Program-made: the position numbers and the translations under genes
The notes under the pieces: generated by a model
What the model saw: only the letters and a program-made list of their open reading frames with translations
Database searches by the model: none
Told to the model about the DNA's origin: nothing
In this document: in pieces, positions 10,240 through 64,000 of the stretch
Layout: the number at the start of each line of letters is the position of its first letter
Numbering within the stretch: position 1 is the first letter of the stretch
Source: Antedon bifida
Lineage: Eukaryota > Echinodermata > Crinoidea > Comatulida > Antedonidae
Assembly (NCBI GenBank): GCA_963402885.1
Contig: OY727101.1
Coordinates: forward strand, 15,662,417-15,726,416
Direction: 5' to 3'
Length of the DNA: 64,000 bases

Positions 10240-11094
10240 ATGACTGGAGGGAACGCTAAATCGACAATTAAACCAAAACATACGCCTGTAAATGTTGAAG
10301 ATGTTTTGTTGAATCAAGGCTTTGAAGTTGGCAAAACCATCGGCGAGGGTGCATATTCCAAGGTCAAGGATGGCTGGTCTAATTTACACAATAAGCAGAT
10401 AGCGATAAAGATAATCAGCCTAAAAGATGCACCCGGTAGGTACCAGGAAAAGTATCTTCCAAGAGAACTTGATATCATCCGAAGGGTGAAACATAAAAGA
10501 GTGGTTGAAGTGCTGTCGGTTATTGAATGTGAGGCGCATGTTTACATTGTGATGGAGAAAGCAGTGCACGGTGATTTGCTTGGACGCATTGAACTTTTTG
10601 GCACTGAGACGGAAAAGGGCGCAAGGCGGTTTTTCAAGGAAATTATCGAGGTGTTAGAATACTTCCACGAAGAGGGGATAGCTCACAGAGACTTAAAATG
10701 TGAAAATATACTTCTAGACCAGAATAACCATGTGAAATTGTCAGACTTTACTTTTGCTAGAGATTTTGTATCTGGCGATAAGTGCAGTACTTTCTGCGGG
10801 ACATTAGAATACATTGCTCCTGAGGTGCTACGAGAAGATGAGTACGACCCAAAGATTGCAGATATCTGGAGTCTGGGTGTGATTTTGTACTTATTGTTGG
10901 TTGGTAAAGGTCCGTTCAATACCGAGAGTATACCAAAGTTATTAAAAGAACAAACCGAAGAAGTAACATTTCCAGAAACGTGCAATTTGTCCAAAGAAGT
11001 GAAAGACTTGATAAAATCAATGTTGACAGTGGATGTTGAAAAGCGGGCAACTCTTACAGACATTCTCAATTCTGATTGGATGAACCATTTATGA
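10240..11094 (+). CDS. TSSK-like serine/threonine kinase, intronless
   Basis: This 284-residue single-exon gene is essentially only a kinase domain. The glycine loop is at 35-40 (GEGAYS), the ATP-anchoring lysine is K57 in IAIK, the catalytic loop is HRDLKCEN (D151, N156), the APE motif is at 193-195 and DIWSLGVILYLLL follows. The small size, lack of introns and CAMK-like sequence match the testis-specific serine kinase (TSSK) family, whose members act in spermatids in animals. The magnesium-binding DFG motif reads D169-F170-T171, so the glycine is replaced by threonine. The metal-binding aspartate, lysine and catalytic aspartate are all kept, so activity is still plausible. The start ATG is the first in frame and leaves a normal 26-residue N-terminal extension. 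I am sure of the kinase fold, and fairly sure of the TSSK assignment. Confidence 0.85.
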   Translation: MTGGNAKSTIKPKHTPVNVEDVLLNQGFEVGKTIGEGAYSKVKDGWSNLHNKQIAIKIISLKDAPGRYQEKYLPRELDIIRRVKHKRVVEVLSVIECEAHVYIVMEKAVHGDLLGRIELFGTETEKGARRFFKEIIEVLEYFHEEGIAHRDLKCENILLDQNNHVKLSDFTFARDFVSGDKCSTFCGTLEYIAPEVLREDEYDPKIADIWSLGVILYLLLVGKGPFNTESIPKLLKEQTEEVTFPETCNLSKEVKDLIKSMLTVDVEKRATLTDILNSDWMNHL

Positions 11095-32200: not shown

Positions 32201-35200
32201 AAACATCAAAAAACATAAATTACAAGTAACATCAGCATTTTGCATCATTTGTTATCTGAGTAAAATTTCCATCAAATATATAATATATATACACTTTTTT
32301 TAATTCTATACTATTTTGTTATGTCATGTCTCAAGTGCAAAAATGTACAATAATAATTTTGAAATGTTATAATATACCAAGTTATTTTCATTGTATTAAG
32401 TGCTATTTTCATAGCGCTTTGACATATACATATATATACATTACATTAAAAAAAAACAACAAAATAAAAAGTATGGAAAAACAACAATCCAGTTCCCTCA
32501 ACAACTGTTACCATGCCAGGCACTCAAACAAGGAGATTATTCTCAGAATTGAGTGTGGATGAGTGACAAATATTAATTGGTCCGTTTTTTGTTGTTGGGA
32601 AAACTGTATATCATTAATTAAAGAAATGATTAGGTTTTTTACAATATAGTTTATACATAGTTATATATACAACAGTTTTATTTAGTCATGTGGGTCTTTA
32701 ATATTAGTATAAGGAGTGTAAGCATAGCATGTAAGATTATTAATCTGTAATGTTTCAGTAGGAATTTCACAGTACAGGTGCGAGTCATTACCACTGATAC
32801 TTTCAAAGCCCAAATTTGATGAGCCTGGTGGTGACGCTTCTTTTGCAGTAGTTGGCAAAGGATATGATAGAATAGAGTTTGTAAAGATAGTGTCATTACC
32901 TTGTTGTCTGTTTTCCGTGTTACAGAATTTCGGAGTTGGTTTGTTGCGAAAAATCATACTTTCTTCCAATTTTTGCATGAGGTCTAATCTAGAAATCCCA
33001 GATGACAGATTTCCTGAAGGGAGTTCAGAAGGAAGAATCTTTGTTGACATCCTTGAGTCCAAAGTAGCCATTCCAGATTCCTTTGAAGGTATTCTTGAGG
33101 CATGAGCTCTAGAAGATCTTGCATCTATAGTATTTGAACCATTCAGAATTGGTTTCTTAGCCGTTGGTGGTTTTTGCTTTAACGTATGGAAATGGACACC
33201 CAATTCTTGAAACTTTAGTGGTTGGTTGTCAGTGGGAAGTACATTGTTATTAAAAGACACTTTCGTGTCATCATCCATCATTTCTTTCTGTTTCTCGCTT
33301 TTCATATCTTGAACAAAATCATCATTGATTTGGTTGTAGACATTTTCTTCATCACAGTTTACAGGTGTCTTTGACAATATTGTATCTGACTGTTGGATGT
33401 TTTGTATTTCATTATCAATTGAGGCCTCTTGGTTTTGGTATTCATCATCTCTGTCTTGAATGCATTCTGTTTTTTCAATGTCTAGCTTATTGGTGTTTTT
33501 CCCCTTACCATTATCAGCAGCAGCAAAATTGTCATTGATTTGGTTGTAGACATTTTCCTCATCACAGGTTGCAGATGACTTTGACAGTTTGAGATCTGAT
33601 TGATGGATATTTTGCATTTCATTATCAGTAAATGTTTGGTTTTCATATTCATCATCTGCATTTTGATTGCATTCTTGCTCATCTTGTGTTTTTTCAATGT
33701 CTAGTTTGATGGGATTTTTCAGCTCAACATTATCAGCACTTGGATCACATGAATCATTGGTTACATCTGTGGAGTTGTTTGATGATGTTCTAAATTTATA
33801 ACACAGAATTACAATAACTATTAGAAGCGGTAAGAGGATGCCTGCTACTGTAACTACTATGATTATTATTATGTAATTTTGTGTAGGTTTTTGTGGTTTG
33901 TCTTCAACTTTATCATCTTTTGGTTGAAGAATCTTGTATTTTTTAAATCCATGTACGTCATTAGAAGATGTCACATGACATGTCAACACACTGTTAATCA
34001 TTCCATCAGTGATGTTCAAGTTGAGTTGTGATGTGTTGTCCAGTAGATTGGTATTGTCTATTGTCCAGTTGTATCTGCATTCAGAACAGTTATGTCCAGT
34101 CTTGCATTCGAAAACTACTAACTGTCCGATTTTAAGATCATCATTAACAACAATTGTCACTATAATTTTGACTTCAATGGCCTCTAAATAACAACTTTCA
34201 TCTCTCTCATTACCATTTAGTTCCATTTGACAGCGAAATATTTTTTTGTAATCCTCCTCCTTGATCAACCGTGTGTTTTTACGAGTAATATGAGTACTAT
34301 TTCTGAAGTCTTCCCCATCCTCTGAAAAACCAATCCATTGTAGTGTAGGGTTTAGGTTCATGTGCTCAACTTGGCAAACAGCAGTCATATATTCACCAAC
34401 AGCGTAATTGTATCGATTGGAAAAACAATACTCTTTTGGAAGAACAGTTAAGTAAGCAATGTTTGATTCCTGGATTAATTCTGTTCCAGAATAAACTTTA
34501 CATTTGTACTTGCCTGAGTGTGATGAATTTACTTTTGAAAATTGCAACTTAAACACGAATTGTTGTCCTTGTTGTTCTTTTACTATACTGTCGTCATTCT
34601 TTATCCATTTAACGTTGTAATCAAGTTCTTTGTCAATGTGACATTTCAATGTGGCATCACCATCTTCAAAAACTGTCACATTTGATAAAGTAACAGTAGT
34701 TCCTGAGGCATTTCCCAACATAATTGTAGTTATGATGATAAGAGTAATTATAAGGAAAGACATCTTTATTGCTGCCATGAACCAGATCCACACAATAGTA
34801 TTTCACATTATTACAAAATGGAAAGAGTAATTATATGTGGATTGTGGATTATATGATAGAGGGTGCTATTGATTGACAATTGACATGATGATACTTGAAC
34901 GACATATGAAACCAGTTTTATTGCTACATTTATTTCCTTAATTACAAGATGCATATTTAGGTTCCAAACAAAAACCAACACATATAGTCAACGTGCCTTT
35001 TCCTTTCAAGCCCCTCTTATTTGGAACTCGTTACCATTTTCTGTTCGTAATTCACCAAATCTCCTCGCTCCCCACCCATAATTAATGGTTTCTAGTTCAA
35101 GGTGATGACTGACGACACATCGATTTACCTGACATAGTTCGGGCTTCATTCATTGATTTTGTCACTTTTATTTATTATGTAATATGCAATACTACTGCAT

Positions 35201-38200
35201 ACACAGACTTAGTAAATTGTCACTTTTTCTGTTAAACCTGTGCTGCAACTATATTCAATGGCGCAGATCTGTTTCGAAAAGGTGAGGTTGTGGTATAATT
35301 ATGCGCATGTTTTATTAGGGAAATTCCCGGGCTTCATCAGCGAAATATCCGAAGAGAATCTGCTGAAGTGTAGGCGTAGCTTGACTGTACATTTGTATTG
35401 GTATGGTCGCCTGTGTGGTATCTAAATTAGTTCTGCACCATGTATTAGTGTATGTTGGGGAGAGGAATGCATTCTTATTCATACATTAATAAAATAGTGA
35501 TACTCGTAAAGTTTTTTGGAGGATTAAAAATAGCTCCTTGCCAAGTAGACGGGGGTTTTCCATTTTCTTACGCACACAGTATCCCAGTATCATGTGCAAA
35601 GTTACGTGCAAAGATACGATACAATGAGAAAGTTTAGGAAAATTACACCTCTAGATGGCTGGAAATTGCACTCATCATAATCAACACTTCAGCAAATACA
35701 TATTCCGTAAAATATTGAGGGGACCATGCCTCCTAAAAAATAGCATTGAAACTACAGAAATGACATACGAAACCAAATTTTTGTTTTATGAACAATTTTA
35801 TTATATACAAAACAAGTGTTTGTATACGAAAAATACAACGCAACAAAAGTATTTAACATAAATTAACATAGCATAAAAGTAGTACATCTAATCATCAATT
35901 TCAAAATATATGTAATATTTGACTAGTTAATATACATAGTGTCAGAGATTGCTTCAGCTATAGACTTCTTCTCTTTTACATGTCCATAGGCATATGCATA
36001 TTCAGGGTTATCTTCTAATGTGGCTTGTGTTTTTTCAGTAGTTTCTTGTGCATCATTTGGTAGAGAGGTTTGGTAGACAGGGGATTCTTTTACTTGTAAG
36101 TGTATTACTGTTTGGGCTGGTTGGTTAAAATGTGCATATGCATATGAATATTCATGATCTTTATTCAAAATATCACCAGGATACTCTCTGTTGTGATGAC
36201 AACTGCAGTGACATAGACTCCTATCCCGGTGTGAAAGAGTTTGTAAAGAAATTTGTTCTGTACATGAAACATTTGGTACTAGATATTCTGATGGCATTAG
36301 CTCCACCACTTCATCTGTTTTGGTGAAATCATCTGGACTACATTGGGTTGACATGTCTTTATTTCTATACCCCTTTTTCTCTTTATTTCCTTTAGTTTTA
36401 GACTTTTTATAGATAATAATTGTTATAATGATAATGACTATTAAAGCACACGTACCAATGATGTATATATAGGCAACATCCACTTTAGCACCACCCTTTT
36501 CACCTATTTTTTGGTTTTTATTATCAGTAGTATCATCTTCTGGTTGAATCTTGTATTCTGAAAATCCATGTACATCATTAAAAGATGTCACATGACATTG
36601 CAATACATTGTCAATCATTTCATCAGTGATGTTCAAATTGAGTTGTGATGTGTTGACCAGTAGATTGGTATTATCTCTTGTCCAGTTGTATCTACATTCA
36701 GAACAATTATGTCCAGTCTTGCATTGGAAAACTACCAACTGTCCGATTTTAAGATCATCATTAACAACAATTGTCACTATAATTTTAACTTCAATGGCCT
36801 CTAAATAACAACTTTCATCTCTCTCATTACCATTTAGTTCCATTTGACAGCGAAATATTTTTTTGTAATCCTCCTCCTTGATCAACCGTGTGTTTTTACG
36901 AGTAATATGAGTACTATTTCTGAAGTCTTCCCCATCCTCTGAAAATCCTATCCATCGTAATGTAGGGTTTAGGTTCATGTGCTCAACTTGGCAAACAGCA
37001 GTCATATATTCACCAACAGTATAAGTGTATCGATTTGAAAAACAAGACTCTTTTGGAAGAACAGTTAAGTAAGCAATGTTGGATTCCTGGATTAATTCTG
37101 TTCCAGAATAAACTTTACATTTGTACCTGCCTGAGTGTGATGGATTTACTTTTGAAAATTGCAACTTAAACACGAATTGTTGTCCTTGTTGTTCTTTTAC
37201 TATACTGTTGTCATTCCTTATCCATTTAACGTTGTAATCAAGTTCTTCGTCAATGTGACATTTCAATGTGGCATCACCATCTTCAAAAACTGTCACATTT
37301 GATAAAGTAACAGTAGTTCCTGAGGCATTTCCCAACATATTTGTAGTTATGATGATAAGAGTAATTATAAGGAAAGACATCTTTATTGCTGCCATGAACC
37401 AGACCCACACAATAGTGTGTCACATTATTACAGAATGGAAAGAGTAGTAAAGTGGATTTATGCAATCATAATTGACATGATGATACTTAAACGACATATG
37501 AAACCAGTTTTAATTTTATTTCCTTAATCCTTATTTCCTGATACACAAAGCAATATTATACAAGAACGGTAATGGGAATGCCAACCAACAGCAGCCAACA
37601 AATCTCTTCAGCATAAAACAAAAACATATGGTCAACGTGCCTTTTACTTTCAACTGGAACTCGCTACCATTTTCTGTTCGTAATTCACCAAATCTACTTT
37701 CCTTTAAAGTCAACTTAAAATCACATCTTTTGTCAGATTTGTTATTTACCTTGCTTTATTCTCAAGTGCCTTTGCTAAATTTGTTAATTGATGCTATATA
37801 AATTTCTGTTATTATTATTTCAATAAATTGTTTTCAATCATTTTGTAAATGTCAATTTCCATTTGCTACTATTGGGATGTGATTCCTCGCTCCCCACCCA
37901 TTACACAGATTTAATGGTTTCTACAGTAGTTCAAGGCGAAGATTGATGACACATTAATTGACCTGACCTAGTGAGGGCGTCAGTCGGTTTTGTCACTTTT
38001 TTATTACATAATATGCAATACTACTGTATGCACAGACAAAAAGTAGATTATAAATGATAGAGAGTGCTATTACATAATACAATTTATTGTAACTTTTATT
38101 TTGATACGTATGCACTGCACACTACTGTTCATTCAACTGTAATAAGCATCTGGATCTGGTAGCTACTGTACAATCGTCAGCATATAGGCTGTCTCGCACA

Positions 38201-41200
38201 GGTCACGCTCCCATGTGTATAGCTGGTTGCAATCTCTTTTGGTATATAATGGTACACCTTAAAAGGTAGCATCATCATCTTCAAGAACTGATATGATGAT
38301 GATATTGTATCTGTAGTTTCCAAAGTTTTTCCAAATCTAATTGTAGTATGATAATAATGGTAATTATGATTAGGAAAGACATCTTTATAGCTGCCAGATT
38401 CACACAATAAAAGAATAAAGTAAAGTAGATTGATAGAGGGTGCTATTAACACAAGTAATTATATAAGATTAACTCCTTATTAGAACTTTTATTTTCATTT
38501 GTATGCTGTAACATTGAAACTACAGAAATGACATATGAAACTAGATTTTTGTTTTATGAACGTTTTTATTTATATACAAAACAAGTGTTTTTGAACAAAT
38601 ACAAAGCAACAAAGAGGAAAAATTAAATGGAATACTGTATTATAAATAACTAATTATGACTAATACAATAACTATTTCTGATCTATACCGCAGCATTGCT
38701 TCATCATGTTTGTGACCTAGCCCTTATTTTGTCCTCAAATCGTACAGTTAAAGTTAAACTGACACTAAGGCTTTAGAATGTTCTTGACAGTCAGTCCTCT
38801 ATATATTTAACATCAACATTAGGGCAGCTAATTATCAGAATTTGTTGTTGTACATTGCTTCAGACTTCTTCTCTTTTACATGTCCATAGGCATATGCATA
38901 TTCTGGGATATCTTCAAATGTGGTTTGTGCTTTTTCAGCAGTTTCTTGTGCATCTTTTATTGGTAGAGAGGTTTGGTAGACAGGTGATTCTCCCACCTCT
39001 AAATATATCGCAGTTTGGACTGGTTGGTTAAAATTTGCATATGCATATTCATGATCTTTATTCAACATGGCACTGTGGTGACAACGAATCATATTCTGGT
39101 TTGAAAGAGTTTGTAATGAGATTTGTTCTGTAGATGAAACATTTGGTACTAGATATTCTGATGACATTGAATCTTGTTTTACCACTTCATCTGTGGTGAA
39201 ATCATCTGGACTACATTGAGTTGACATGTCTTTACAACTTGTACACATTTTTTTCGCTTTGTTTCTTTTAATTTTAGACTTTCTATAGATAAATATTGTT
39301 ATAATGATAATGACTGGTGAAGCACATGCAACAATGATGCATAAATATATGGTATCCACTTTACCATGACTCCTTTCATATGGCTCATGTGTAACTGTAC
39401 ATATAGAAGTAGCTTCTTCACCTGTTTCATTGTTTTCCCTGTTATCAACTTGTATCACATATGAATCTGATCCATGTACGTCATTAGAAGATGTCACATG
39501 ACATGTCAGCTGACTGTCAATCATTTCATCAGTGATGTTCAAGTTGAGTTGTGATGTGTTGCCCAGTTGATTTGTATTGTTCATTGTCCAGTTGTATTTG
39601 CATTCTAGACAACTGTGTCCAGTCTTGCAGTTGAATGAGGATAACTTTCCAACTTTAGAATTGCCACATGTAACAATTGTCAATTTTATCTGAACATTTA
39701 TTAATATTTTGCAGTTCATCTTTTCTAGGTCTATAAAATTGGAATTAGTGACATTCAAAATACAAGCAAATTGCAGTTTATTTAACTTCTTTTCAACTAA
39801 AAAGTAATTTTCTAAACTCAAGTGACTTCATTTTTATGGAAGAAAGTTTGTTGTTAACATTCCATTGCAGTCTTTGAGAATCAAGGGACAATTCTTCAAT
39901 AATGTTTGATATACAGTAAAAAATCAGCACATCTCCAACCATGTAAAATTCTTTATTTGATTGACAAGTTGGTTTAGGAAAGGCAACCACATTAAGTACA
40001 GCAGGCTTAGAAGACTTTAGAATAATGTTTGAACTATTGATGGCATGGCAGCTGTACTCTCCAGAATCTATCAATGTGACTTCTGGTATACTGAGTTTAC
40101 ATAAGTCAATCTCCTCATCAAAATCAACTTGAATCTTACTTGTTCCAGGATGTAGCGTCTTGCTGTTAAGTTTCCAAAAACAAGTAAAATCTGGTTTCCA
40201 ATCTGAAAACACACAAAGGAATTCAGCTGTTCCATCTTCTAGAATATTCTTATCCTTTGGTTCATAAAGAAGATGAAGATCAAAGCCAAATGCAAAACTT
40301 GGCAATAAAATGATGGTTAAAATTGATTTCTGAAGCATATTGAACATTAAATTGATTGCTTACTACAAGCTATAAAAAAATTAATAAAATGATATATTGT
40401 TTCCTGGTGAAAAAATTGTCCATGCAGTCATATAAACAATATGTTAAGTTTCATTTTCAAATTTGTATTTGCCCGAGTGTGATGGATTCACTTTTGGAAA
40501 TTCCAATTTAAACTGTATTTGTTGTCCTTCTTGTACTTTGACTTAATTTTTTTATCCATTCAACCTTGTAATAACTCCTTTGTCATTAATAGTACATTTC
40601 AATGTTAATAATAATAATATGGATTTATATAGCGCACATACCACTCAAGAATGCTCAAGGCACTTTAAAAAAATGAAATTCAATATACAATATCTGGCTA
40701 AATAATACGCAATGTCTTTGGAAGGTCACCTTGTTGCATCAGATGGTCAGATGTTGCATCTTCAAGAACTGTAACATTTAATACTGTAGATATAAGTCAA
40801 ATACATTGTAGGCCTATGTACAGTTCATTAAAAGTAATTACAGTAATTATCTTACAAATTGTTTGTTAAAGAGATGAATTGAAGAGGGAATAAAGGAGTT
40901 GTTAAACCTATTTGTTTTTGTCAAAGGATGACGTAGTCTACCTGATCTTTTATTATGCAATCATAATTAACATGATGATACTGTATATAAACGACATATG
41001 AAACCAGTTTTATTGAAACATTTATTTCCTTCTAACAGAGTGTCATATTACAGAATGGAAAGAAAAGAATAAAGTAGATTATAAATGATAGAGGGTGGAC
41101 TATTTATATAATACCATTTATTGTAACTTTTATTTTGATACGTATGCACTGCGCACTGTTGTTCATTCAACTGTAATAAGCATCTCTCTAGGTATATAAT

Positions 41201-44200
41201 GGTACACCTTAAAAGGTAGCATCATCATCTTCAAGAACTGTCACAAAATAATGATATTGGATCTGGAGTTTCCAAAGTTTTTCCAAGTCTAATTGTAGTA
41301 TGATAATAATGGTAATTATAATTAGGAAAAACATCTTTATAGCTGCCAGATTCACAAAATAGTGTGTCACAAGCTATAATGATTTATATAATATTAACCC
41401 TTATTAGAACTTTTATTTTCATTTGTATGTTGTAACATTGAAACTACAGAAATGACATATGAAACTAGATTTTTGTTTTATGAAGGTTTTTATTTATATA
41501 CAAAAGTGTTTTTGAACAAATACAAAGCAAGAAAGAGGAAAAATTAAATGGGAAAATTATGAATGACTAATTATGACTAATAACTATTTGTGATCAGTAC
41601 TGCAGTTATATTCAGTGATGTAGCCACAAGAAATAAAGTGGTGCACTTTCCGCAAAAAAAGGGAACAATCTCTGTGCAAGCCACTGAGTTGTCAAAGGCA
41701 TCTTTAAAAAACCTTACCAACCGTACTGGTGGTTACGACCCTGATATTGCTTCAGCATATTTGTGACCTAGTCCTTATTTTGTCTTCAAATCGTACAGTT
41801 AAAGTTAAACTGACACTAAATGCGTTAGAATGTTCGTGAAAAAGTCAACACTAAAAATCATTCCTCTAAATATTTAACATCATCATCAACAATGGCACAG
41901 CTAATTATCAGAATTTGTTGTTATACATTGCTTCAGACTTCTTCTCTTTTACATGTCCATAGGCATATGCATATTCTGGGATATCTTCAAATGTGGTTTG
42001 TGTTTTTTCAGCAGTTTCTTGTGCATCTTTTATTGGTAGAGATGTTTGGTAGACAGGGGATTCTCCCACCTCTAAATATATTTCCGTTTGGGCTGGTTGG
42101 TTACAATTTGTATATGCATATTCATTATCTTTATTCAACATGGCACTGTGGTGACGAATCATATTCTGATGTGAAAGAGTTTGTAATGAGATTTGTTCTG
42201 TGGATGAAACATTTGGTACTAGATATTCTGATGACATTGAATCTTGTTTTACCACTTCATCTGTTGTGGTGAAATCATCTGGACTACACTGAGTTGACAT
42301 GTCTTTATTTCTATATCTTTTTTTCGCTTTATTTCGTTTAGTTTGAGACATTCTATAGATAATTATTGCTATAATGATAATGAGTATTAAAGCACATGCA
42401 CTGATGATGTATACATAGATTGTGGCAATAGAAGTAACTTCTTCATCTGTCTCACTGTTTGTCTGACTGCAGTTATTGTCATTAGTGTTATCAGGTTGTA
42501 TCACGTATGAATCGGATCCATGTACATCATTAGGAGATGTCACATGACATGTCAGTAGGCTGCAAATCATTTCATCAGTGATAGTCAAGTTGAGCTGTGA
42601 TGTGTTGCCCAGTTGATTGGTATTGTTCATTGTCCAGTTGTATTTGCATTCTGGACAACTGTGTCCAGTCTTGCAGTGGAATAAGGATAACTTTCTAACT
42701 TTAGAATTGCCACATGTAACAATTGTCACTTTTATCTGAACATTTATTAATACTTCGCAGTTTCCCTTTTCTAGGTCTTCAATGTGGTGATGTGTCCCCT
42801 GATTTGTCACATTTAAGATACATGCAAAATGCAATAGATTAAACATTTCTTTAACTAAAAACTCATTTTCTAAACTCAAGTGGGTTGCATTGTTGTTTCT
42901 TTTCATATTTATAAAAGAAATATTTTTGTTAACATTCCATTGCAGTCTATGAGAATCAGTTGAAAATCCTTCACTAATCTTTGAGGTACAGTACAAAATC
43001 AGCAAATCTCCAACCATGTAAAATGCTTTGTTTGATTGACAAGTTGGTCTAGGAAAGGCAACCACATTAAGTATAGCAGGCTTAGAAGACTTTAGAATGA
43101 TGTTTGAACTATTGATGGCATGACAGCTGTACTCTCCAGAATCTAATAATGTGACTTCTGGTATACTGAGTTTACATGAGTCAGTCTCAACATCAAAATC
43201 TACTTGAATCTTACTTTCAGTACGTAGCGTTGTGCTGTTATGTTTCCAAAAACAAGTCAAATCTGGTTTCCAATCTGAAAACACACAAAGGAATTCAGCT
43301 GTTCCTTCTTCTAGAATATTCTTATCTTTTGGTTCATAAAGAAGATGAAGATCAAAGCTAGTAGCTGAGCTCAGCAGTAAAAGGATAGTTGATGCGAATA
43401 AATTCATTATAGAATATAGTTTTAAAACAGTGTGCATGCAATATATCTTCTTGTATGTTAAACTAGGTATTTGAAACTACTGTATCTATTTTATTGATGA
43501 TTATGATATATGTACTGTAATAAGAACACAACTGACAACTGAAAATGTAGAAATGTCATTATAGAACACTCTAATACACTACTAGCTAATTGAAACTATT
43601 TTTTTTTATTTGGGGCCTTGGTATGTAATATACAATATTACGGTGACCTGTAGGATACATACGATAGTTTTAAAGAAGAAAATATGCAATCTTCTTTTCA
43701 ATTTTAATTCTGGGTTTGAATATTTAATAATTGATTAATTTACATTTTGATTTGATAATTCGGAAACCACATTGATAATGCCACTCTTTTTCTCTGATTA
43801 GCAGAGTAGAACATAATTTAGAACATTAATTTAAAGTACAACAAATAAATTCAAACCAAGCCCTCCTCATTCAAACTGGTGACATAGTATGTGTGTAATT
43901 AAAGGGAATATTTTTTTAATCTTTTGAAGTTTCATTAAAGATGTATTGTCCCTTGAAACACAAAAAATGAAAGTCAAAATATTCTAAATTTAAATTGGCC
44001 ATATCAAAGTAATATTAAAGTTATTCACTTTAGGTCGAAAATTCGAGCCAAAAACAACAAGTTTACATAATTAACAGGTAAATTAATATGATTACATTTC
44101 GTCTGAAAAATTGTCGCGAGCAAAAGTAAACAAAGATTTCAAACCACGAGTATGCATTATGCATGATGCTAATTAGGATTATTTACAACTCGTCACGGTT

Positions 44201-47200
44201 GAGAAGGTGTTTTCACACAGATCGCGAAGAAATTTTATGATTATGCATACAGATGATCCAAACAAGCGCGTTGCATTATGAGATATGTTTTGATCGAAAA
44301 CTTTGACTGGAAGTCACAGTTATTTTTTGAACAAAAAAATGTCTGTATTTCAGTTAAATGATTTTTTTTTCGACTAATTTTTCGTGAAAGTTAATAACTA
44401 TTTTGATACTTCAAAATGACCCACTTTTTTCGAAATCTTTTTTTTTTTATTTTTTTGGAATTAGTCAAAGGGACAATACATCTTTAACTGCAACTATACA
44501 CTAGTTCACTCAGTTTCTCCTTCACAGGAATCAGTAAACAATATTTCAAACATATTTCTTTGATGTATTTATTAGACTATTACTAGCTATTTACATTGAG
44601 CAATAAACATACTATTTAGAATCGTTTGATTACAGCGTGGACCAAATACAGTAGTAACTTGTAAACAGTGGTGTAACGGTTATAAGCGCTCACTGGCTAA
44701 ACCCAGGGGTATCGGAGCTTACAGGCCCCTGACCTAGGTCCAGAGTAAAAAACAGGCATTAGAATATGTTCAGCGTTAGCGGGCCACTTAAGGTCCTTAA
44801 ACCAGGGGCCTCATGCCTCTACTTTATGCCACTTCTTGTAAATTGTATAAATAATAATATAATAATAATATAATGATAATAGGTATGAGAAATATACCCA
44901 GACCATTCAGAACAAAACGCTATTTGCAAACAATATCAAGCAGCCTTGTTGCATAATGTTGCCTAAAATAATTTTAGTTATAATATATATATAAATAATT
45001 AATAATAATTTCATTTTTTTAGTTCTTTATTTATAGTATACAACACAAATTTTTGGGATTTTGAATGGTATCACAAGCAGTAAAATACAGCTATTATTTC
45101 TTTATAAATCAACTTTGATTGAACTTAAATGTTCTGCCCACCTAATTACTACCGGTATTTACATGTCATTGACGACTAAAACTCATTAAGCATGTATCCC
45201 AAATTAGTATTGCATACAGAATCACAGAGTATAATGTTTATGATGTTGTAAACTAATGAACTACATTATACAGTACAACTAGTGAATTGATTATGGACAT
45301 TCATTGCATAAAAATATGATACATCTTAAAGGATTTTTATAAGAGCATAGTTCAGTAGTAGACAATTTACCCTGATGAGCTTTGTTCTGGATTGTTGCTG
45401 TTCAGTGTGTAATAAAAGACATTTTTGGAACAGAATCATTTATGATGTCAGTGTTGTTGTCATTGCTAATTCCTTTATTACAGGAATTAATCTCTGAAGA
45501 ATCCAGTGTAAAATAAAACGCACCAGCCACATCTGTTGGTCTATCTATTGACCCTGTGACATCATTGTTTCTAGAGCTGGCATAATGTTGTTCTGTTGTA
45601 CCAGCATCCTCAAATGTCAACGACTTTCCAAAATCGTTATCGTGCATAAAGGATGATAAACTTCTAACAGGAAAGGCAGATGTAGGAGCAGCAGCAGATA
45701 CAAAGGATATGTCGTTTGTGGTGAAGGTTGATGGAGTAACTGAAGGGTTGTCTGGTATAACTGCATACATGGCACTACCAGAATAATCTCCTGCTACAAT
45801 ACTGTTGCTTCCATTAGTGGAAAGAGAAGGTATTTTAGTAACAGAATAAGTGATACAACATGGAAAATGTTTATATGATTGGTACATACAAACACTAATG
45901 AGTGACAATACAACAAAGGTTGTTGACACAGAGATGGCTACAACAAGATAAACTGAAGTATCTTTTTCATCTGTCTCATTGTTTTTACCACTGTTTGTCT
46001 GGCTGCAGTTATTGTCATTAGTGTTATCAGGTTGTATCACGTATGAATCGGATCCATGTACATCATTAGGAGATGTCACATGACATGTCAGTAGGCTGCA
46101 AATCATTTCATCAGTGATAGTCAAGTTGAGCTGTGATGTGTTGCCCAGTTGATTGGTATTGTTCATTGTCCAGTTGTATTTGCATTCTGGACAACTGTGT
46201 CCAGTCTTGCAGTGGAATAAGGATAACTTTCTAACTTTAGAATTGCCACATGTAACAATTGTCACTTTTATCTGAACATTTATTAATACTTCGCAGTTTC
46301 CCTTTTCTAGGTCTTCAAGGTGGTGATGTGTCCCCTGATTTGTCACATTTAAGATACATGCAAAATGCAATAGATTAAACATTTCTTTAACTAAAAACTC
46401 ATTTTCTAAACTCAAGTGGGTTGCATTGTTGTTTCTTTTCATATTTATAAAAGAAATATTTTTGTTAACATTCCATTGCAGTCTATGAGAATCAGTTGAA
46501 AATCCTTCACTAATCTTTGAGGTACAGTACAAAATCAGCAAATCTCCAACCATGTAAAATGCTTTGTTTGATTGACAAGTTGGTCTAGGAAAGGCAACCA
46601 CATTAAGTATAGCAGGCTTAGAAGACTTTAGAATGATGTTTGAACTATTGATGGCATGACAGCTGTACTCTCCAGAATCTAATAATGTGACTTCTGGTAT
46701 ACTGAGTTTACATGAGTCAGTCTCAACATCAAAATCTACTTGAATCTTACTTTCAGTACGTAGCGTTGTGCTGTTATGTTTCCAAAAACAAGTCAAATCT
46801 GGTTTCCAATCTGAAAACACACAAAGGAATTCAGCTGTTCCTTCTTCTAGAATATTCTTATCTTTTGGTTCATAAAGAAGATGGAGGTCAAAGCTAGTTG
46901 CAAAACTCAGCAATAAAACTATGGTTAAACTTAAAAGATTTTTTGATGCAGATTTCTGAAACATGTTGACCATTCAAGAAATCAATTTATAAATTCATTG
47001 CTTCCAAACTATAAAATTAATGTACTTTTTGAGTTTCATATGTATTATATAGCAAGATTGTTTCCTTGTCAAAGACGTTTCATCCAACGAAAGACTGAAA
47101 AAGTAATTGTACATTGTGAAATTGTCAGTTTTCGTTTCATTTTCATATTTGCTTTAATAGCAATAGCTTGGCCAATAAATCATTGCACTGCTTGACAGTG

Positions 47201-50200
47201 ATTGATAGGGAATGTGATGAGGGGAATACAATTTAGCAGAAAAATGATGTGCATGTGTAGGGCATGGATGAAATTAAACTTCTGGGTGTGTGAGTTGTTG
47301 TGGAATGGGGCTTTTAGGGTGGGGGCATTGTTTATTGGTGGAAGGCATAATTTTTTGTTGGTGTAAAATGCTAATGGTAAATAAAACTCCCTCATTAAAA
47401 TTACAACACAAATTAATATCAAGGTCTAAAAGATACAATACAATTTGTGGAATTGTGTTTATTCCAAACAATATTCCATGGGAGGCATTTATTCGAGGAT
47501 TCTTTTATTCAAAGTGGAGTGTAATAAAATACGGTATATGGCACTTATTCAAAAACAGGGGATTTAGGTGAAGGGTCAGTACTGACATCTCGCATTTCAA
47601 TCTTGCTTCTACTAGTTCGTAAACTATATTTCGAAATAATGACTCAAATAAACAATTACGTTGCAACTATTTAATTTTATTGAAACTATAATGGTATTAA
47701 AACACATACATATTTTTTATAACTTTATACATGTTCTTTATACATTTTACTCAAATAATACTAAAGTTTAATTTGGGTAAATGATTAAGTATTGACTTTA
47801 TACAGCTTCTCCTTCTTGATTTACACTTATTTCTGTTGTTTCTGTACCTGTCCTAGTAACCTTTTTTTTAGGTGTTAAGCCAGGAAGATAAAATTTTGCA
47901 GAATGCTTTAACTTAATTTTTACAATAAAAACTGCAACTATAGCAAGACAAACAATGCATCCTATTGTTACTGGTAATATTACAATCAGATTTGTATTTG
48001 TTGTTTCTTTGTTCACTGAAGTTTGTTCCAATTGTGTTGAAATCTTATTAATTGTTTTTTGATGATTTACATTTAGGATATATGTAGCATTTCCCGTAGC
48101 AAAATGTTTTGAAGCAATGCAAGTTATATGACAATCGTTCATTTCTTTTGTTATATTGTTGATTCTATTGTCAGAGATTTTGAAATTGTTTTTTACATCA
48201 TTATTGCAGTTTTCAAACATCCATTGGTACGAAACATCCTCAAAATGTTCATTTATATTGCATGTTATACTGTTGTATGTGAAATCTGGTGTAATATGCA
48301 CATGAAGTTGATTAGTGATGTTTAACGGTTTTGTAGTACACACACGTGGGACTTGTTCTCCATTCGCCGTCATCATGCATTTATAATCGTCACCGTGTTT
48401 CATCATAGTGGCTGGAAACTTTGCAGATAGTGTTGTGTATTCCTTATTTTTAAGCAGATTTGATTCTGCTCCTTCAGGAATATCGAGCCATTCCATTTTA
48501 AAGCCCCCTCTAGTTTCAGAAGTACATGATATTACCACATCTTCGCCATCAATGTACATATCACTAGATAGACTACAGTACGGATATTGTCTATCTGCTA
48601 CATCATGAACAGTTAATTTACCTGCTTTGGACTTGGCTATAATGTCTGTCCCATATAGTACAACACATTGATAATTTCCTTCATCTGACATTTTAACGTC
48701 TGAAATCTCCAGAATTACATTTCTCCTATCAACATCAAACCTCTCTTTATCATTGTAGTCTGGGGTGAAAAGATCTCCATCTTTCCACCAGTTGAATGTT
48801 ATTTGGTTTAGGTCTGCTAATTCTCCATGCAAGATGCAAATCAATTTAACATTACTGTGTTTATAAGCTTGAATATCTTCTGGATGGAATGCAATTGTAA
48901 CATCCACACAGAGACTTTTTGAAATCAAAATGCAAAAGTAGCAAACAGCCATTACAACCTGCTTTATTGAAGCCATGATCTTAATTGAAATTTGATTTCA
49001 AATTTTCCCACTCAATAACTCAACCACTTTTAAGTAGGGGAGTTTGCATTATAATTATTAAACAAAGCCATACAATTATATCAAGTTCTTTTTCCTGCAC
49101 AGTATTCTTTCTATCTTAAAAATGAAATTTGTTTTTTTACCAATGTTTATATTTATCATTTTATAATTAACTACATAACTATTGTATTAGGCGTGTGCAT
49201 TTAATAATGGTATCAACCAACGGTTTCTTTTCATGTGATAACATTGTTTGGTCCTGTGCCAGAACCAATACCATACTAATAGATTACAAAGCATTGATAC
49301 ACTTGAGCAAGTTCAAACTAGGTATTGCTATAGTTAAAATATACAAGGATATATATTATACAGTAGTTGCTAGAACTAATCTGATCTTTATTGTTAAGTT
49401 CAAACTAAAAGTATGCAAATCGGCTACTCTAGTATATTTTATGGGTTGGGGGGGCAGTGTAAAATAATGTTCTTTGTGGTTATACCATGGACCTATACAT
49501 TTGTAGGTCCATGGTTATACACAGAATATTGTGGTTATACACAGGATAGCGTGGATATCACACAGGGTGCTAAATTGGGTGCATAGTGCTATGAGTACAA
49601 ATGAATCTTTATTAATATCACATCTGTTTATAGTTGTTATTATATATTTATTAAAAATCTATAATATGAAAGATACTATTACTATATATAAGCAGTTTTC
49701 TTTAATATTATCTTATTATATTGTTTATTTGTTTGTTAATAGGTACTTGATTTTGTTGAGTTTTGATAGTTTATAGACTTAAGCTGTTTTGGTCACTATA
49801 TATATCTATGACTAAATATTGTGTGAAAATAAGGAAAGTATTGCTATAGTGAGTAATAATATAAGTTCGCTTTCGACAGTCCTTTTTTTCCTTTCACTTC
49901 CTTGTTCTTTGTAATTCTTGTTTTCATGTCGGAATTAAATACAGTATATCAAATCAAATATAGGAAGAACAAGGAAGAGTGAAATAACACTCTTCCCTGC
50001 TGGGAAAAATATAGGAGGAGAAAAATAAAGAGAAAGGCATCACTTCTTATGATTCATGCTGAAGTTTAAGTTCTTCATATGCTGAATCATTAAAAAGTTT
50101 ATCTATATTGTTCATGTCTACCATTTTCTTTTCTTCTGTCTTAGTTGCTTCTCCAAAATGATGTTCATCTTGTTTGCTCTTTTCGTTGCTATCATCTAAT

Positions 50201-53200
50201 CTATTTGATTTAACATCTTTTTTCTTTCTTCCATCATTTCTTTCCATGACATCATTCTCATTGTTTTCTATACTGTCATACTCTTTGCTGTTTCGTTCAT
50301 TAATATCATCATCTTTCTTATTATTTAAGATCCCCATGATTTCATCCTCCAATGTCATCTCAGAGTTCCTTTGTGGAATCAATGTTTCTTTCTCCTCACT
50401 CACTGGTAGATTACTTTTCGTCTTCTTGTCTATTACACTGTAGGTCGGGTCATCTGTAGTTTCCTCATACACACTCTCTAGTGACTGCCTTCCTAATGTG
50501 CTCTTTGACAATGCTGGCATGCTGCTTAAGCTCGGCAGCGGAGGAGGCAGCATCTCTGGCATTTGCGGCAGCGTGTTTATCGATGCAGAATCAAGAGCTT
50601 GCAAATTTATCGACACAGAATCAGAATTCTGTAGTGTATCACTGGTGAGATAACACCGGGGTATTGTTGTGTTCTGAAGAGTGTACGATCCAAAATTGGA
50701 ATTAGAAGGGGAAATTAGTAGATGGGACGAATAGTTACGATTATTAAACATCAGTCCTTGATGACTCATCATGTTTCTTTCATGTTCATTGTATTTTAAC
50801 TTGTAGAAAAATTTACAGCACATGAAAATAATCAATATTGCTAATAAAACTGCTATAATAATAACGACAATTGGTATAAAATCCATTGTTCGACTTTTCC
50901 TTTTTCAGATATAGTACAACTCTGTAATTAATATAAACAAATAAAAATGTAGTTAACATTATAAACGCTACATTCAATAAATATATATATTTGTTCTACC
51001 TTCTTCATTGTATATTGTATATAATCTATTATATTAATACTACTTTTCTAATTTCTTTTCTGTAAGAAAATGTAAATTCATTTATAATTGTTCATTGTTG
51101 TCCTAGTATAACAGTTAGGCCTACCATGTTAGTTTATATATTGTTTTTTTCATTTGTTTCTCCACACTTCAACAATTTAGTGGAGTAATATAAAACATAA
51201 ATAAATAATATAAATAATTTACCTTGTGATCAGATCTGTTGATTCCTTATATCCTAAAAGAATTTAGTTTTTCTATTCTGAAGGTCCATAGATTCAATTT
51301 GTAACGTTTGCACCATTCTTTTTCCTTCATGTTTTGTATTTCTATTTTAGATTTGCATACTTTGTACCTGATAATATTGACTAATATCGATTTTGTAACA
51401 TTTTCGGTATGATTAGTTTCTATCGGTTTGATAAAGATTTTTGTATTTCTTCCTTGTTTTGTATAATTAAGTTTCGTTTTAATCAAATCGATAGTACGAA
51501 CGAACTTGCGTTAGTTACCGCTAAATGTTAATATTCAAATGGAAAAAAATACAGAGACTAATACAAAAATAAATGCAATTAATTATTTATTTATTTTTAC
51601 ATATTTATGATACAGGAGGGACACTTCTTTTTTTTTTTCTAAAGTATATATATATATCTGTTCTTTTTTGTTCAATGTGTGGAAAATAAATAAATGAAAC
51701 AAACAAACACTGTGATGATGAGGACACTTTTTATTTTGGATCCAAAAATATTTAGTCTATCCTTAAAGTAATTTTTCCATTAATGTGTTACACTTTTTTT
51801 AAATTTTCAGTTGTTTGCAAGATACTATTGTTAGTTCTTCGTCATACTTACCATTTTTGTCATTCTATCGAAAATGTCTTGCTGATGCATTGTTGTGTGA
51901 CAGAATAAACATGCAAAACACAGGTACAGTACTTTATTGTGAGTTACCTTGTATACAGTATGTATAGGTCTAAGCACATATAGTCATATGGTTCTGTATC
52001 TTATAAAAGTAGTGCTTTATGAAATCAAAGTTTACACATTTTTTGTTCCTAGAATTATTAGTAATAAATCATTAGATAATAAATAAACAAAAATCAAAAC
52101 TGTTGTTCGCATCAGACTAAACCTAATTCCTCTATTATAAGTTTAAAACATCGCTCAAAAAACAGATTTGCAAGATCATCTGTCTGAAGTTAAGTGACGA
52201 TGGCATCGGTGGTGTCACAGTGGCAGTGACATTTTGTGATTGTAGTAAATTATTAATCATATTTAATATACATATATATGTAAATAAAAAATATTATCCA
52301 ATCACTATTATTATTCTTTTAGATCAGATACACAGCCCAATTTTAACAGCATTTCCAAAAGCGACTCACTATTCGGACATTATGGATGCTTTCAGGGTAT
52401 GTATTATCATCATCAACTTCCTTATCAATTCATCATTTTCATTATCATTTCCTTAATAATCAATTCATCATTTTCATTATCATCCTTATTATCATCAACT
52501 TCATTATCATCAACTTCATTATCATCAACTTCAATATCATCAACTTCAATATCATCAACTTCAATATCATCAACTTCATTATTAATTCATCATTATCATT
52601 AACTTCATTATTATCATTATAATTATCATCAGCATCATTATCATTAATTTCATTATCATCATTACGACCATTTTCATCATTATCAATTTCATTATCTTAA
52701 CATTATTATAATATCTCCTTTCCTCATTATCATCACTGTATTCAATGTGTCTAAAGAAATCTGTTTTGTTTGTTTTCAGAGTGCTTGGGCAGAAAAAAAG
52801 AGGTCCCTAAAGAGAATCGACAAGGTAAATTACATTTACATTACTTACATATACAGTATAAATTATTTGTAACTACTGTGGAGTGTCAGGGTGTTGAGCA
52901 ATTGGTCAGAGCATTGCTTACCAACAGAACGATCCACTTACAAACAAGAATGATGTTTCTTAATGGTCTAGTTAGGAGTAGACTCACCTATGGTTGCCAT
53001 GCTTGGAGGGCAACAGGAAGTGAAATGTCCAAACTTAGCACAACATACAAAACCTTCCTAAGAAGAATGCTAGTGAATGGCTTTCAAAGAGTCTGCCCAC
53101 CAAACCATGTAGACATATCCTCAGATGAAGAAACAGATGAAAACTATATAGACTGGCGTTACGTTATTGATAATGACGATCTCTACAAAATTACTGGCTG

Positions 53201-58979: not shown

Positions 58980-59009
58980 ATTGTTATTGTATGAAATCTT
59001 TATTTTTTT

Positions 59010-60598
59010 TTGGTTTTCCGCAACGAAGTTGCAGGAAAACCTCTTGTGATTGTACGAAATCATCATCTTTTTTGTCATCTTCTTTCTTTCTGTATGATTT
59101 TTGTGTAACGCTTTTCTCTAAAACTTGCAAACATAACATTTTTTTAACTATGTTGACATTTTGACATTTATGTAACGTCGTCAAGCGAAGCTTTTCATGA
59201 TGCTTACAATTGCGCAACGTGACGTACGCGCGATTTAACGATTTTCTCGTATTTAACATAGCTCGACAACCAAATAACATTTCAAATTGAAACTTTGCAA
59301 AAGTTTAATTTATATTATGCGCTAACTTTCTGTGGAAAAAAAATTGCGTGTTTTACACAAAGTTACGCGCGCACGCGCATTTAAAATTTCAAAATGCGCA
59401 AAATTAATTTATAATCAACTTTCTACGCGTTTCATGTCGTTTTAAGCATGTCAAAAATTCCCACGCGTGCGCACATTTTTACGTGTGCGGTGCGCACGTA
59501 GCATTGAAAACATATTTTTTTCGCGTGATTTATGTTTTTACAGCCTTTTCTAGTAATTTTACCAAATTTTAAACAATTTCGACTTAAAGATACGTCATAC
59601 GAGCACGTCGAATTGGACAATTTGCGCGCGTTTTTTATGAAAAGGTTAAAAAATTCGTTTAAAATATGCCTTTTTTTAAACAGTCGTAATTTCTAAACTA
59701 GACGGTCAACTTTTTGTGGATGGCATATTCTGGAAGTAGATGAGTTGTAGATATCGTATCAGGTATTATTATGGCTAACCGGACATTGTGACGTCATCGT
59801 ATGGCCACGCGAATATAAAATTTAGGATTTTTGTATCTTTCGTCATAGCTTACCACATTGAATAGAGCGCATCTCCACTTATCCGTTTTCCATTTTCACC
59901 CCGATTTTGATATTGTCTAGGTCAATCAACTATCTTTCGCAGGAGTTAAAAATATTTTAATTTTTTTGACGTCATCATGCCTAAAAATGTAAATCACGTG
60001 TGGCATTAATTTCATCTTTAATGTAAATTTTAATCTGTTATAGCTCGTAAGAATAAAATGTGATAATCACGATTAAAACTTTTTCTGGAAGCTATTGGAT
60101 TGTAGATACGAAAATATGTAAAAATGTTGCCAATCGGATGTTGTGACGTCATCATATGGCCAGTTAAATAAAAAAGGTCGTATTTTCATCTTTTGCGTCA
60201 TAATTCATTACATTTAAAAGAGCGCGCATCAATATTTCACGTATTCAAATTTCTTCTACACGCTGATACGTTGTTGCTGAGATAATTTCCTTTCGGAAAT
60301 GCTACCTTCGCGTTTCATTTTAAAACCGTCAACATGTTAAAAATTGCAATAAATATCGGGTCCCGTAATTTCACCTATTCTACACTGTATGTGATATGGA
60401 TACAGATTATGCTGTGTATACTATATATGAATTTAAATAATAAAATTCAGCAATAACAACATATCATATTCTTCAGTTCAGGTCATAATGCCAACGTGAA
60501 CACTTCCTTTTGTCCTCAACCTATCCCCTTAATGTTAATGTTGCACCACTTGCGCGGCGGAAAACCAAACTCGTCAAAGTGACGAGTTACATGTCTAG
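59010..60598. mobile_element. Helitron-like non-autonomous element A, copy 1
   Basis: The left end TTGGTTTTCCGC is the inverse of GCGGAAAACCAA near the right end. A 5' hairpin occupies 59012-59041. At the 3' end the hairpin ACTCGTCA-AAG-TGACGAGT is followed by seven bases and CTAG, then T. A hairpin close to a CTRR end with a 3' T is the Helitron hallmark. There are no protein-coding frames. The inside contains four subrepeats with GACGTCATC-like cores at 59790, 59968, 60145 and 60325. Confidence 0.7.
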
Positions 60599-62093
60599 TC
60601 TTTTTATTGTTTCTGTACACTATTTTGTGTAACAATTATCTCAAAAAGTTTAATGTCAATGATTACCAAAATTTCAGAATATCTTTCAAATAATATAACT
60701 TAATCCTAATAAGCTTTCCAACATGATCACTCATCCGTGACGACATTTATACGCCATTTTGCGAAATCACATTATCAATCATATCTCCATAATTCATTAT
60801 CACATATTAATGAAATTCACTACACGTAAACTTCAGGTCAAGGGTAAAAATATTAGCAAATAAAAACGCACGCGCACGTAGGTTCATGCGCGTGATATCG
60901 CGCGTTAAAAATTTAAAACGCTCAAAATTAAGTTTTGATCAATTTAGAGCATGAATTAGGCCATTTGCGTGTTTCAAAAAATTACTGCGCAAAAATGCGT
61001 TTTTGCGCGCGCGATACTTAAAAAGCGTAAAAAATATGAATTTTTTTTACAAATCTCATTCTACTCACCATCCTTAGTACATTCACCAAATTTGAGTCAG
61101 TTCCGACTTAAAATAACGCTATACGAGCACGTTAAAAATGACAAAATGCGCATATTAATTTTACAAAAGTTCTGAAAATGGTGAAAAATAGGTCTTTTTT
61201 AAAATGAAAATAATTCTTCAGAATGCAAGATGACCCCCGATTTTTTTAACTTATTCTGGAAGCCATTGAGTTGTAGATATGAATTCATGTACACACTTTA
61301 CGTACAAAATGTTTTGACGTCATCAAATGGCCACTTGAATTTAAAAATTAGGATTTGTTATCTTTTTGTGTAGATTATCACATTCAACAGAGCACATCTT
61401 GGTTATGTGTGCTCGAATTTCGCACAACTTTCAGTATGTGCTTGCTTAATTAATTATCTTTATCATGAGTTGACACTATCTTCATTTTAATGACGTCATC
61501 ACGCGTAAAAACTTGAATAACGTAGGCCGTGTAATTTCACCTTCGCAGTAAATTTGAATATCTTACAGCTCTTCAGAATTGAAGGTTACCTTGATGATTA
61601 TAATTTATTATGAAAGCTGATGAAATGTAGATATTAATTCATATAAAAATTAAGCCTATCGGATGTTGTGACGTTAACATATGGCCAGTTGAATTGAAAA
61701 AGTAGTTTTTTCAAATTTTTCGTCAAAGTTATACACAATTCAAAGAGCGCGCACAGCGCTTCTACGTGCCAAATTTTTTTCAAAATCTTATATTTTTTTG
61801 CTCAATTAATTATCTTTCGAAATTGTCATCTTAAAGTTTAGTTTGATAACGTCATCATGCCAAAAAATTAGAACATGTGTGTCCCGTAATTTCACCTATG
61901 CTACACTGTATATAGTGTACATATTGTATATGGCATATAGGCACAACTCAGCACTATAAGCATATAATAGGATGGCATACATCAACATTTTCCGATCGTA
62001 TGTTAACGTACGTGCATGTTTAAAAAAATTAATTTCAGTAAAATGATAAAAATGATCACCTATAATTCGTCAAAGTGACGAATTAAATTCTAG
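60599..62093. mobile_element. Helitron-like non-autonomous element B, copy 1
   Basis: This is related to A throughout but more diverged. It begins TCTTTTTATTGTTTC and ends with the hairpin AATTCGTCA-AAG-TGACGAATT, five bases and CTAG. Subrepeat cores lie at 61316, 61492, 61680 and 61848. Its natural 5' end may be the AGGTGATCATTT hairpin at 58948, separated from it by insertion of element A. Confidence 0.65.
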
Positions 62094-63710
62094 TTGGTTT
62101 TCCGCAACGAAGTTGCAGGAAAACCTCTTGTGATTGTACGAAATCAACATCTTTTTCTTGATCTTCTTTCTTTCTGTATGATTTTTGTGGAACGCTTTTC
62201 TCTAAAACTTGCAAACATAACATTTTGTAACTTTCTCAACATATCGTCATGCACATGAAGATGTACTGCGAAGCTTTTCATGACGTTTACAATTGCGCAA
62301 CGTGACTTACGCGTGATTTAACGATTTCCTTCTATTTAACATAGGTCGAAAACCAAATAACATTTTATATTGAAACTTTCCAAAAGTTTAATTTATATCA
62401 TGCGCTAACTTTCTGTGGAAAAAAAATTGCGTGTTTTACACAAAGTTACGCGCGCACGCGCATTTAAAATTTCAAAATGCGCAAAATTAATTTATAATCA
62501 ATTTTCTACGCGTTTCATGTCGTTTTAAGCATGTCAAAAATTCCCACGCGTGCGCACATTTTTACGTGTGCGGTGCGCACGTAGCATTGAAAACGTATTT
62601 TTTTCGCGTGATTTATGTTTTTCCAGCCTTTTCTAGTAATTTTACCAAATTTTAAACAATTTCGACTTAAAGATACGTCATACGAGCACGTCGAATTGGA
62701 CAATTTGCGCGCGTTTTTTATGAAAAGGTTAAAAAATTCGTTTAAAATATGCATTTTTTTAAACAATCGTAATTTCTAAACTAGACGGTCAACTTTTTGT
62801 GGATGGCATATTCTGGAAGTAGATGAGTTGTAGATATCGTATCAGGTATTAATATGGCTAACCGGACATTGTGACGTCATCGTATGGCCACGCGAATATA
62901 AAATTTAGGATTTTTGTATCTTTCGTCATAGCTCACCAGATTGAATAGAGCGCATCTCCACTTATCCGTTTTCCATTTTCACCCAAATTTTGATATTGTC
63001 TAGGTCAATCAACTGTCTTTCGCATGAATTATAAATATTTTATTTTTTTTGACGTCATCATTCCTAAAAATTTAAATTACGTGTGGCATTAATTTCATCT
63101 TTAAAGTAAATTTTAATCTGTTATAGCTCGTAAGAATAAAATTTGATAATCACGATTAAAACGTTTTCTGGAAGCTATTGGATTTTAGATACGAAATCAT
63201 GTGAAAATTTTGCCAATCGGATGTTGTGACGTCATCATATGGCCAGTTAAATGAAAAAAGTCGTATTTTCATCTTTTGCGTCATAATTCATTGCATTTAA
63301 AAGAGCGCGCATCAATATTTCACGTATTCAAATTTCTTTTGCACGTTAATATGTTGTTGCTGAGATAATATCCTTCCGAAATTGCTATCTTTGTATTTCA
63401 TTTTGATGCCGTCGCCATGTTAAAAATTGCAATAAATAGCGGGTCCCGTAATTTCACCTATTCTACACTGTATGTGATATGGATACAGATTATACTGTGT
63501 ATACTATATATGAATCAAACTAATAGAATTCAGCAATAAAAACATATCATATTCTTCAGTTCAGGTCATAATGCCAACGTGGACACTTCCTTTTGTCCTC
63601 AACCTATCCCCTTAATGTTCGGTACGGTAAGGTACGTCGTTACACGTTCATGTTGCACCACTTGCGCGGCGGAAAACCAAACTCGTCAAAGTGACGAGTT
63701 ACATGTCTAG
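62094..63710. mobile_element. Helitron-like non-autonomous element A, copy 2
   Basis: This is very close to copy 1, with the same ends, hairpins and cores (62873, 63051, 63228, 63408). It follows directly on the CTAG of element B. A few substitutions and a short insertion near 63617-63650 separate it from copy 1. The open frame at 62515-62766 is also seen in copy 1 and is not a gene. Confidence 0.7.
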
Positions 63711-63729
63711 TTATTATTATTTTTTTTTT

Positions 63730-64000
63730 TCTTTTTATTGTTTCTGTACACTATTTTGTGTAACAATTATCTCAAAAAGTTTAATGTCAATGATTACAAA
63801 AATTTCAGAATATCTTTCAAATAATATAACTTAATCCTAATAAGCTTTCCAGCGTGATCACTCATCCGTGACGACATTTATACGCCATTTTGCGAAATCA
63901 CATTATCAATCATAGCTCCATAATTCATTATCACATATTTATGAAATTCACTACACGTAAACTTCAGACCAAGGGTAAAAATATTAGCAAATAAAAACGC
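63730..64000. mobile_element. Helitron-like element B, copy 2, cut by the window end
   Basis: From TCTTTTTATTGTTTC onward the sequence repeats the start of copy 1 at 60599 almost base for base. The A-B pair therefore repeats as a unit of about 3.1 kb that continues outside the window. Confidence 0.75.

Follow-up and report, generated by a model that had tools for sequence, protein, structure and literature searches.

A 64,000-nucleotide stretch of the genome of the crinoid Antedon bifida (assembly GCA_963402885.1, 315.6 Mb in 27 contigs; contig OY727101.1, here C14, positions 15,662,417 to 15,726,416) was analyzed and is referred to as the window. Six receptor genes (R1 to R6) are located between 32.6 and 49 kb of the window, all on the minus strand, and each is a single open reading frame (ORF) except the broken R3. 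Pfam detected immunoglobulin (Ig) domains in the five receptors scanned (R1, R2, R4, R5 and R6), and a hydropathy scan placed one membrane segment ahead of the tail. COX1 of the mitochondrial contig carries AAA at conserved Asn positions and ATA at conserved Ile positions of animals, in agreement with the echinoderm genetic code. Our subject is the R4/R5 pair, in which a nearly identical extracellular Ig part (the head) is joined to unrelated tails. R4 (41908..43407) encodes a signal peptide, the Ig head, a stalk, a transmembrane (TM) segment and a 149-residue tail, termed type A; its signal-peptide Met is at 43407 and a second in-frame Met at 43437, both within the R4 ORF. R5 (45402..46973, 523 residues) encodes a signal peptide, the Ig head of R4, its own TM segment and a 162-residue tail.

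The shared head tract spans 42453..43347 in R4 and 45989..46883 in R5. The copies lie 3536 bp apart and differ at 2 of 895 bp: the difference at 42466 is synonymous (AGT/AGC), and that at 42783 (Ile/Leu) is the only change among 298 residues. By the Nei and Gojobori method (NG86, over 894 bp), synonymous divergence (dS) is 0.0053 (1/188 synonymous sites) and nonsynonymous divergence (dN) is 0.0014. Immediately 5′ of the tract, at 43348-43407 (signal peptide plus three residues), 19 of 60 bp differ (Fisher p = 1.4e-22), and dS rises to a nominal 1.9, a value drawn from only 14 sites. At the 3′ edge, the stalks resemble each other over a few residues, interrupted by an indel, before the similarity disappears. 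The R4 and R5 5′ flanks are 45% alike and the 3′ flanks 46%, which is the level of unrelated flanks in the same comparison. A genome search, whose match counts are lower bounds throughout, placed both head copies on one contig, and a third copy at that identity was not found. A simple false duplication of R4/R5 is ruled out because the flanks are diverged on both sides and the tails have no detectable homology. The first-pass annotation had described two near-identical 893-bp stretches with one amino acid change, bordered on both sides by unrelated or far more diverged sequence, and had pointed to synonymous change as informative; the alignment confirms the observation, with the tract at 895 bp and a nominal rise in dS next to it.

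The tails of R4 and R5 gave a local alignment score of 33, which was reached by 62 of 200 shuffles, so that homology was not detected. In the genome search, the R5 tail matched only itself at E ≤ 1, and the R4 tail was matched only in R2, R3 and R4. Both tails have core YxxI/L/V motifs (YLEV and YGHV in R4, YAVI and YFTL in R5), and R4 also has YxN. Homology of the R4 tail to the tails of receptor arrays on contig C7, which have similar short motifs, was considered and found no support, with a profile score of 1.7 bits against up to 7.8 bits for shuffled tails.

The neighboring R3 (38835..40347, the upper end being the first Met of the ORF) is an R4-like paralogue whose frame is broken by a 17-bp deletion. 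Alignment of R3, R4 and R5 yielded 266 polymorphic sites, which were divided into tract, 3′ side and 5′ side. Within the tract, R4 and R5 agree at 108 of 110 sites; 3′ of it, R3 and R4 agree at 86 of 124. The 5′ side is mixed, its 32 sites falling into 12 R3=R5, 8 R4=R5, 7 R3=R4 and 5 all different, which weakly hints at an older affinity of the R5 signal peptide to R3. The longest run of R4=R5 agreement covered 62 of the 266 sites, with a maximum of 21 in 10,000 shuffles. Between R3 and R4, dS is 0.119 in the head ahead of the R3 deletion and 0.123 in the TM segment and tail. Because these values are equal, the R4 head seems to have moved with its own tail, and the R5 head to have been replaced. 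A copying direction from R4 to R5 also fits position 42466, where R3 agrees with R4.

These data suggest that (i) conversion or recombination of the R4/R5 head is close to certain, judged from the aligned sequences; (ii) a recent, conversion-like homogenization restricted to the ectodomain is supported for two genes with unrelated tails; and (iii) copying probably proceeded from R4 to R5, making the R5 tract the probable conversion acceptor.

The same design is seen within the array, where R1 and R2 appear as a second case of a common head on different tails. R1 (32682..34778) has the head found in R2 and an unrelated 377-residue tail with four YxxI motifs; R2 (35923..37395) shares the head and 5′ flank of R1 and the type A tail of R3 and R4, so that its tail is of R4's type though its head is that of R1. 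Over signal peptide and head, R1/R2 dS is 0.080 and dN 0.035, and the 5′ flanks are 79% alike over 248 aligned bases. The R1 tail contains an internal duplication (33314-33468 and 33524-33675) that repeats an ENVYNQIND motif.

Loci outside the window were picked for matching a query head, and the six head-sharing pairs described here, two in the window and four on contig C11, are thus a non-random sample. At C11 24.96 Mb, four genes form two pairs, with head DNA identities of 88.2% (LONG1/SHORT1) and 90.5% (SHORT2/LONG2); the four other head comparisons gave 76.4-78.8%. After the head, SHORT1/SHORT2 are 95.1% identical and LONG1/LONG2 65.0%, with mixed comparisons at 51.0-56.9%. Of the seven YxxI/V motifs within 364 residues of LONG2, three fit [SIVL]xYxx[ILV], the immunoreceptor tyrosine-based inhibitory motif (ITIM), and one of the three is close to the membrane; LONG1 resembles it by reading. 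SHORT2 has an Arg inside the hydrophobic segment and ends 17 residues after the scanned TM segment, and the same Arg motif is present, by reading, in SHORT1. The 24.96-Mb genes combine similar heads with a long, tyrosine-motif tail versus a short tail with a basic TM residue. This predicted arrangement, a long YxxI/V tail against a short tail with a membrane arginine, is close to that of vertebrate paired receptors. Homology of the R1 tail to the LONG tails found no support, as its scores were reached by 24 of 200 and 107 of 200 shuffles.

At C11 22.78 Mb, five genes form two groups. Head identities are 98.7% for La/Sa, 97% for Sb to both, and 91.6% for Sc/Lb, with 83.5-84.5% between groups. 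Beyond the head, identity is 80.8% between the long forms (the La tail being partial), 99.2% for Sa/Sb and 75-76% for Sc versus Sa and Sb; mixed long/short comparisons are still at 52-68%. Lb has eight YxxI/V motifs after the head (one at the membrane edge), three of them fitting the ITIM pattern, and La was assigned to the long forms by reading of a partly fetched tail. Sa, Sb and Sc stop soon after the membrane, and reading of the segment revealed no charge within it. Quartet sites in the heads paired genes across tail types at 107 of 122 and 102 of 103 sites; in the stalk and TM segment at 24.96 Mb they paired genes by type at 48 of 51.

In all six pairs, found at three loci, both partners are open, and the similarity ends in the stalk, ~13 to 33 residues ahead of the membrane (alignment ends compared with segment positions). 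This position is partly forced, because unrelated tails cannot convert. In four of the five pairs other than R4/R5, one partner has a long tail bearing YxxI/V and the other a very short tail, and in all five the partners have the 5′ flank as well as the head in common. Among 59 receptor-like ORFs, a screen for heads at least 60% identical with tail identity at least 16 points lower returned 12 pairs: two in the window, one at C11 24.97 Mb and nine among five genes at C11 5.5 Mb. The last nine (heads 61-72%, tails 20-49%) look older and stand outside the count of six. The R4/R5 identity is real, recent and part of a wider behavior in this genome.

Arrays of the opposite kind are also present. 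In four C7 arrays with 40 genes, the tail is more alike than the head in 264 of 267 within-array pairs. One region (C7 24.694-24.734 Mb) contains 21 single-ORF Ig-type receptors, spaced at ~1.7 kb, whose tails are near-identical and whose heads vary. In a nine-gene array at C7 18.535-18.555 Mb, the gene at 18538001 begins like that at 18541357, and the gene at 18539688 like that at 18543044, suggestive of the duplication of a two-gene unit.

Given the identity of the R4 and R5 heads, its sharp edges, the discordant histories of head and tail and the five further head-sharing pairs, we consider it probable that an older paralogue, R5, recently had its head replaced by that of R4 via ectopic gene conversion, and that the pair may act like vertebrate paired receptors. 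R4 and R5 are two intact single-ORF type-I receptors with the same Ig head, one residue apart, and unrelated membrane segments and tails. The R4 head would have been copied into R5 between neighbors 3.5 kb apart, over a tract that ends at the signal peptide in one direction and within the stalk in the other. The shared head would then bind one ligand and the two tails would give different signals, so that the pair would work like the paired receptors of vertebrates. We rate a working paired-receptor system as likely at C11 24.96 Mb, possible at C11 22.78 Mb and plausible for R4/R5, in each case from predicted proteins.

Several observations weigh against this proposal. A motif scan of the R4 and R5 tails revealed no canonical ITIM or immunoreceptor tyrosine-based activation motif (ITAM), and neither 19-residue TM segment has a charged residue. 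Because both are lacking in the 149- and 162-residue tails and the TM segments, R4/R5 is not classed as an ITIM/ITAM pair, although it may work like one. R4 and R5, in contrast to the other five pairs, have unrelated 5′ flanks, and co-expression is for this reason not to be assumed. The R5 signal peptide groups, weakly, with R3 (12 sites versus 8 and 7). At 22.78 Mb, the stalk and TM segment pair by type at 28 sites versus 23 and 1 (781 of 1000 resamplings). Among the SHORT2-head matches listed at C11 24.77-24.98 Mb, only LONG1 and LONG2 have long frames (739 and 749), and the remainder are short or broken; two short genes at C11 24.82 Mb have no long gene within the 5.3 kb examined. At C11 25.74 Mb there are four receptors with related long tails only, and no head-sharing pair with different tails was found there. 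Finally, neutral conversion also occurs between tandem paralogues, and where the tails are unrelated this alone confines it to the head. Of the first-pass proposal that the pair bears the signature of paired receptors maintained by gene conversion, the ectodomain-only homogenization and the unrelated tails stand, and the five further pairs go beyond it; the signaling motifs, the TM charge and a shared 5′ flank do not accompany it.

The last of these objections leads to neutral concerted evolution, under which the head is simply the sole homologous stretch of R4 and R5 and no selection for a common ligand face acted. Conversion must end near the stalk if the tails have no detectable homology, R3 of the same array is broken, the C7 arrays are homogeneous in their tails instead (264/267 pairs), and for many short C11 genes the matches listed include no long partner. 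Neutral conversion would not by itself retain both tail types for each head, however, and both partners are open in all six pairs from three loci, with one long- and one short-tailed gene in each pair at two of these loci. We regard neutrality as a somewhat unlikely account of the whole. A crossover chimera, with R5 (or R4) formed once by fusion of one gene's head to another's tail and no repeated conversion, would explain why R1/R2 and the C11 pairs share 5′ flank and head, the outcome expected of a crossover in the stalk. Older, diverged sequence nevertheless flanks the R4/R5 tract at both ends, and the two signal peptides are still recognizable paralogues, which makes such a fusion unlikely here. 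The near-identity across 895 bp and its abrupt edges are also what would be expected if the head of one gene had been assembled or polished with reads from the other. Such an assembly artefact is highly improbable: the flanks are unrelated, both ORFs are intact through the joins, a 5-kb span would be short relative to the long reads presumably behind an assembly of 315.6 Mb in 27 contigs, and the same pattern, more diverged, recurs at other loci. Recent conversion of the R5 head by R4 is the reading that we retain.

The sixth receptor, R6 (47798..48976, minus strand), is a more distant single-ORF Ig receptor with a 43-residue tail and a head 21% identical to that of R5. Beside the receptors, an ORF at 50047-50886 (minus strand) encodes about four residues, then a membrane segment, two adjacent cysteines and a long tail with the motifs SAYEEL, PTYSVI and EYDSI; it had no Pfam match above cut-off and looks like a transmembrane signaling adaptor. 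Elsewhere in the window, a tandem repeat with a unit of ~3.1 kb (58999-64000, reaching the window end) has stretches 89-97% alike and one further partial copy at 74%, and contains no ORF of 120 residues and no Rfam match at gathering score. An ORF of 220 residues (52755-53417, plus strand) has no Pfam match and resembles the end of a retroelement protein. A single-ORF protein kinase (10240-11094, plus strand), which we take to be of the testis-specific type, and a mitochondrial carrier gene (15619-16323, minus strand) are also present.

It is an even call whether an echinoderm has independently evolved a large single-ORF paired Ig receptor system, in which heads kept alike by conversion are set, at several loci, on at least two outputs (long tails bearing YxxI/V, short ones combined with a basic residue in the membrane, and unique tails like that of R5) and other arrays of the same broad kind do the reverse, with one output and many heads. 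If so, an invertebrate deuterostome would have converged on this behavior with genes of a different structure. One proposal for activating partners is that they counter pathogens which take advantage of the inhibitory one (PMC5701461), and the system would allow decoy pressure and neutral conversion to be compared as drivers, with the C7 arrays of alike tails and varied heads as an internal control in the same genome.

Siglec-11 and Siglec-16 of primates are linked Ig receptors whose extracellular regions are kept alike by repeated gene conversion (PMC5701461). They resemble R4/R5 in having linked Ig receptors with homogenized heads and different signaling parts, and in the presence of a non-functional copy with a small deletion (4 bp in SIGLEC16P; 17 bp here in R3, which is a separate gene). 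They differ in being vertebrate and multi-exon, in having outputs known to be opposed, and in being expressed in the same cells and binding ligands similarly; their upstream region is also shared, as in R1/R2 and the C11 pairs and unlike R4/R5 (PMC5701461). CEACAM1 and CEACAM3 or its relatives show inhibitory/activating head similarity kept by conversion and recombination, with species-specific expansion, but have known ITIM and ITAM-like motifs, neither of which is found in R4/R5 (PMC2832619). Residues 33-125 of the R5 head find their best sequence match among solved structures in a CEA chain (E = 7e-10, ahead of titin), a match that shows predicted Ig domains and not descent.

Among invertebrates, the Hydractinia Alr family comprises clustered Ig receptors, and its candidate genes are reported to carry ITIM/ITAM motifs; the available parts of these accounts do not mention converted heads combined with alternative tails, and the likeness is one of description only (PMC11999971, PMC12065747). 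Sea urchin IgTM was discarded as a comparison, since the available account concerns a skeleton-patterning gene and not immune receptors. The first-pass annotation knew of no such case in an invertebrate. This does not extend to paired activating/inhibitory receptors in general, which the tunicate Botryllus has in FF/FcoR with ITIM/hemITAM motifs (PMC12065747); for converted heads on alternative tails, no case outside vertebrates was found in the literature searched (titles and beginnings of abstracts, most subscription papers lying outside it). Paired signaling receptors in invertebrates are thus not new, and Botryllus FF/FcoR is the nearest case: these too are clustered invertebrate Ig receptors, encoded as pairs, with ITIM, hemITAM or YxxI/L/V tails (PMC12065747). 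FF and FcoR belong to separate gene families whose products have been suggested to associate as heterodimers. FcoR also contains a sushi domain (PMC12065747), for which Pfam gave no match in the five window receptors scanned. In A. bifida, by comparison, the two partners carry one head and are single ORFs.

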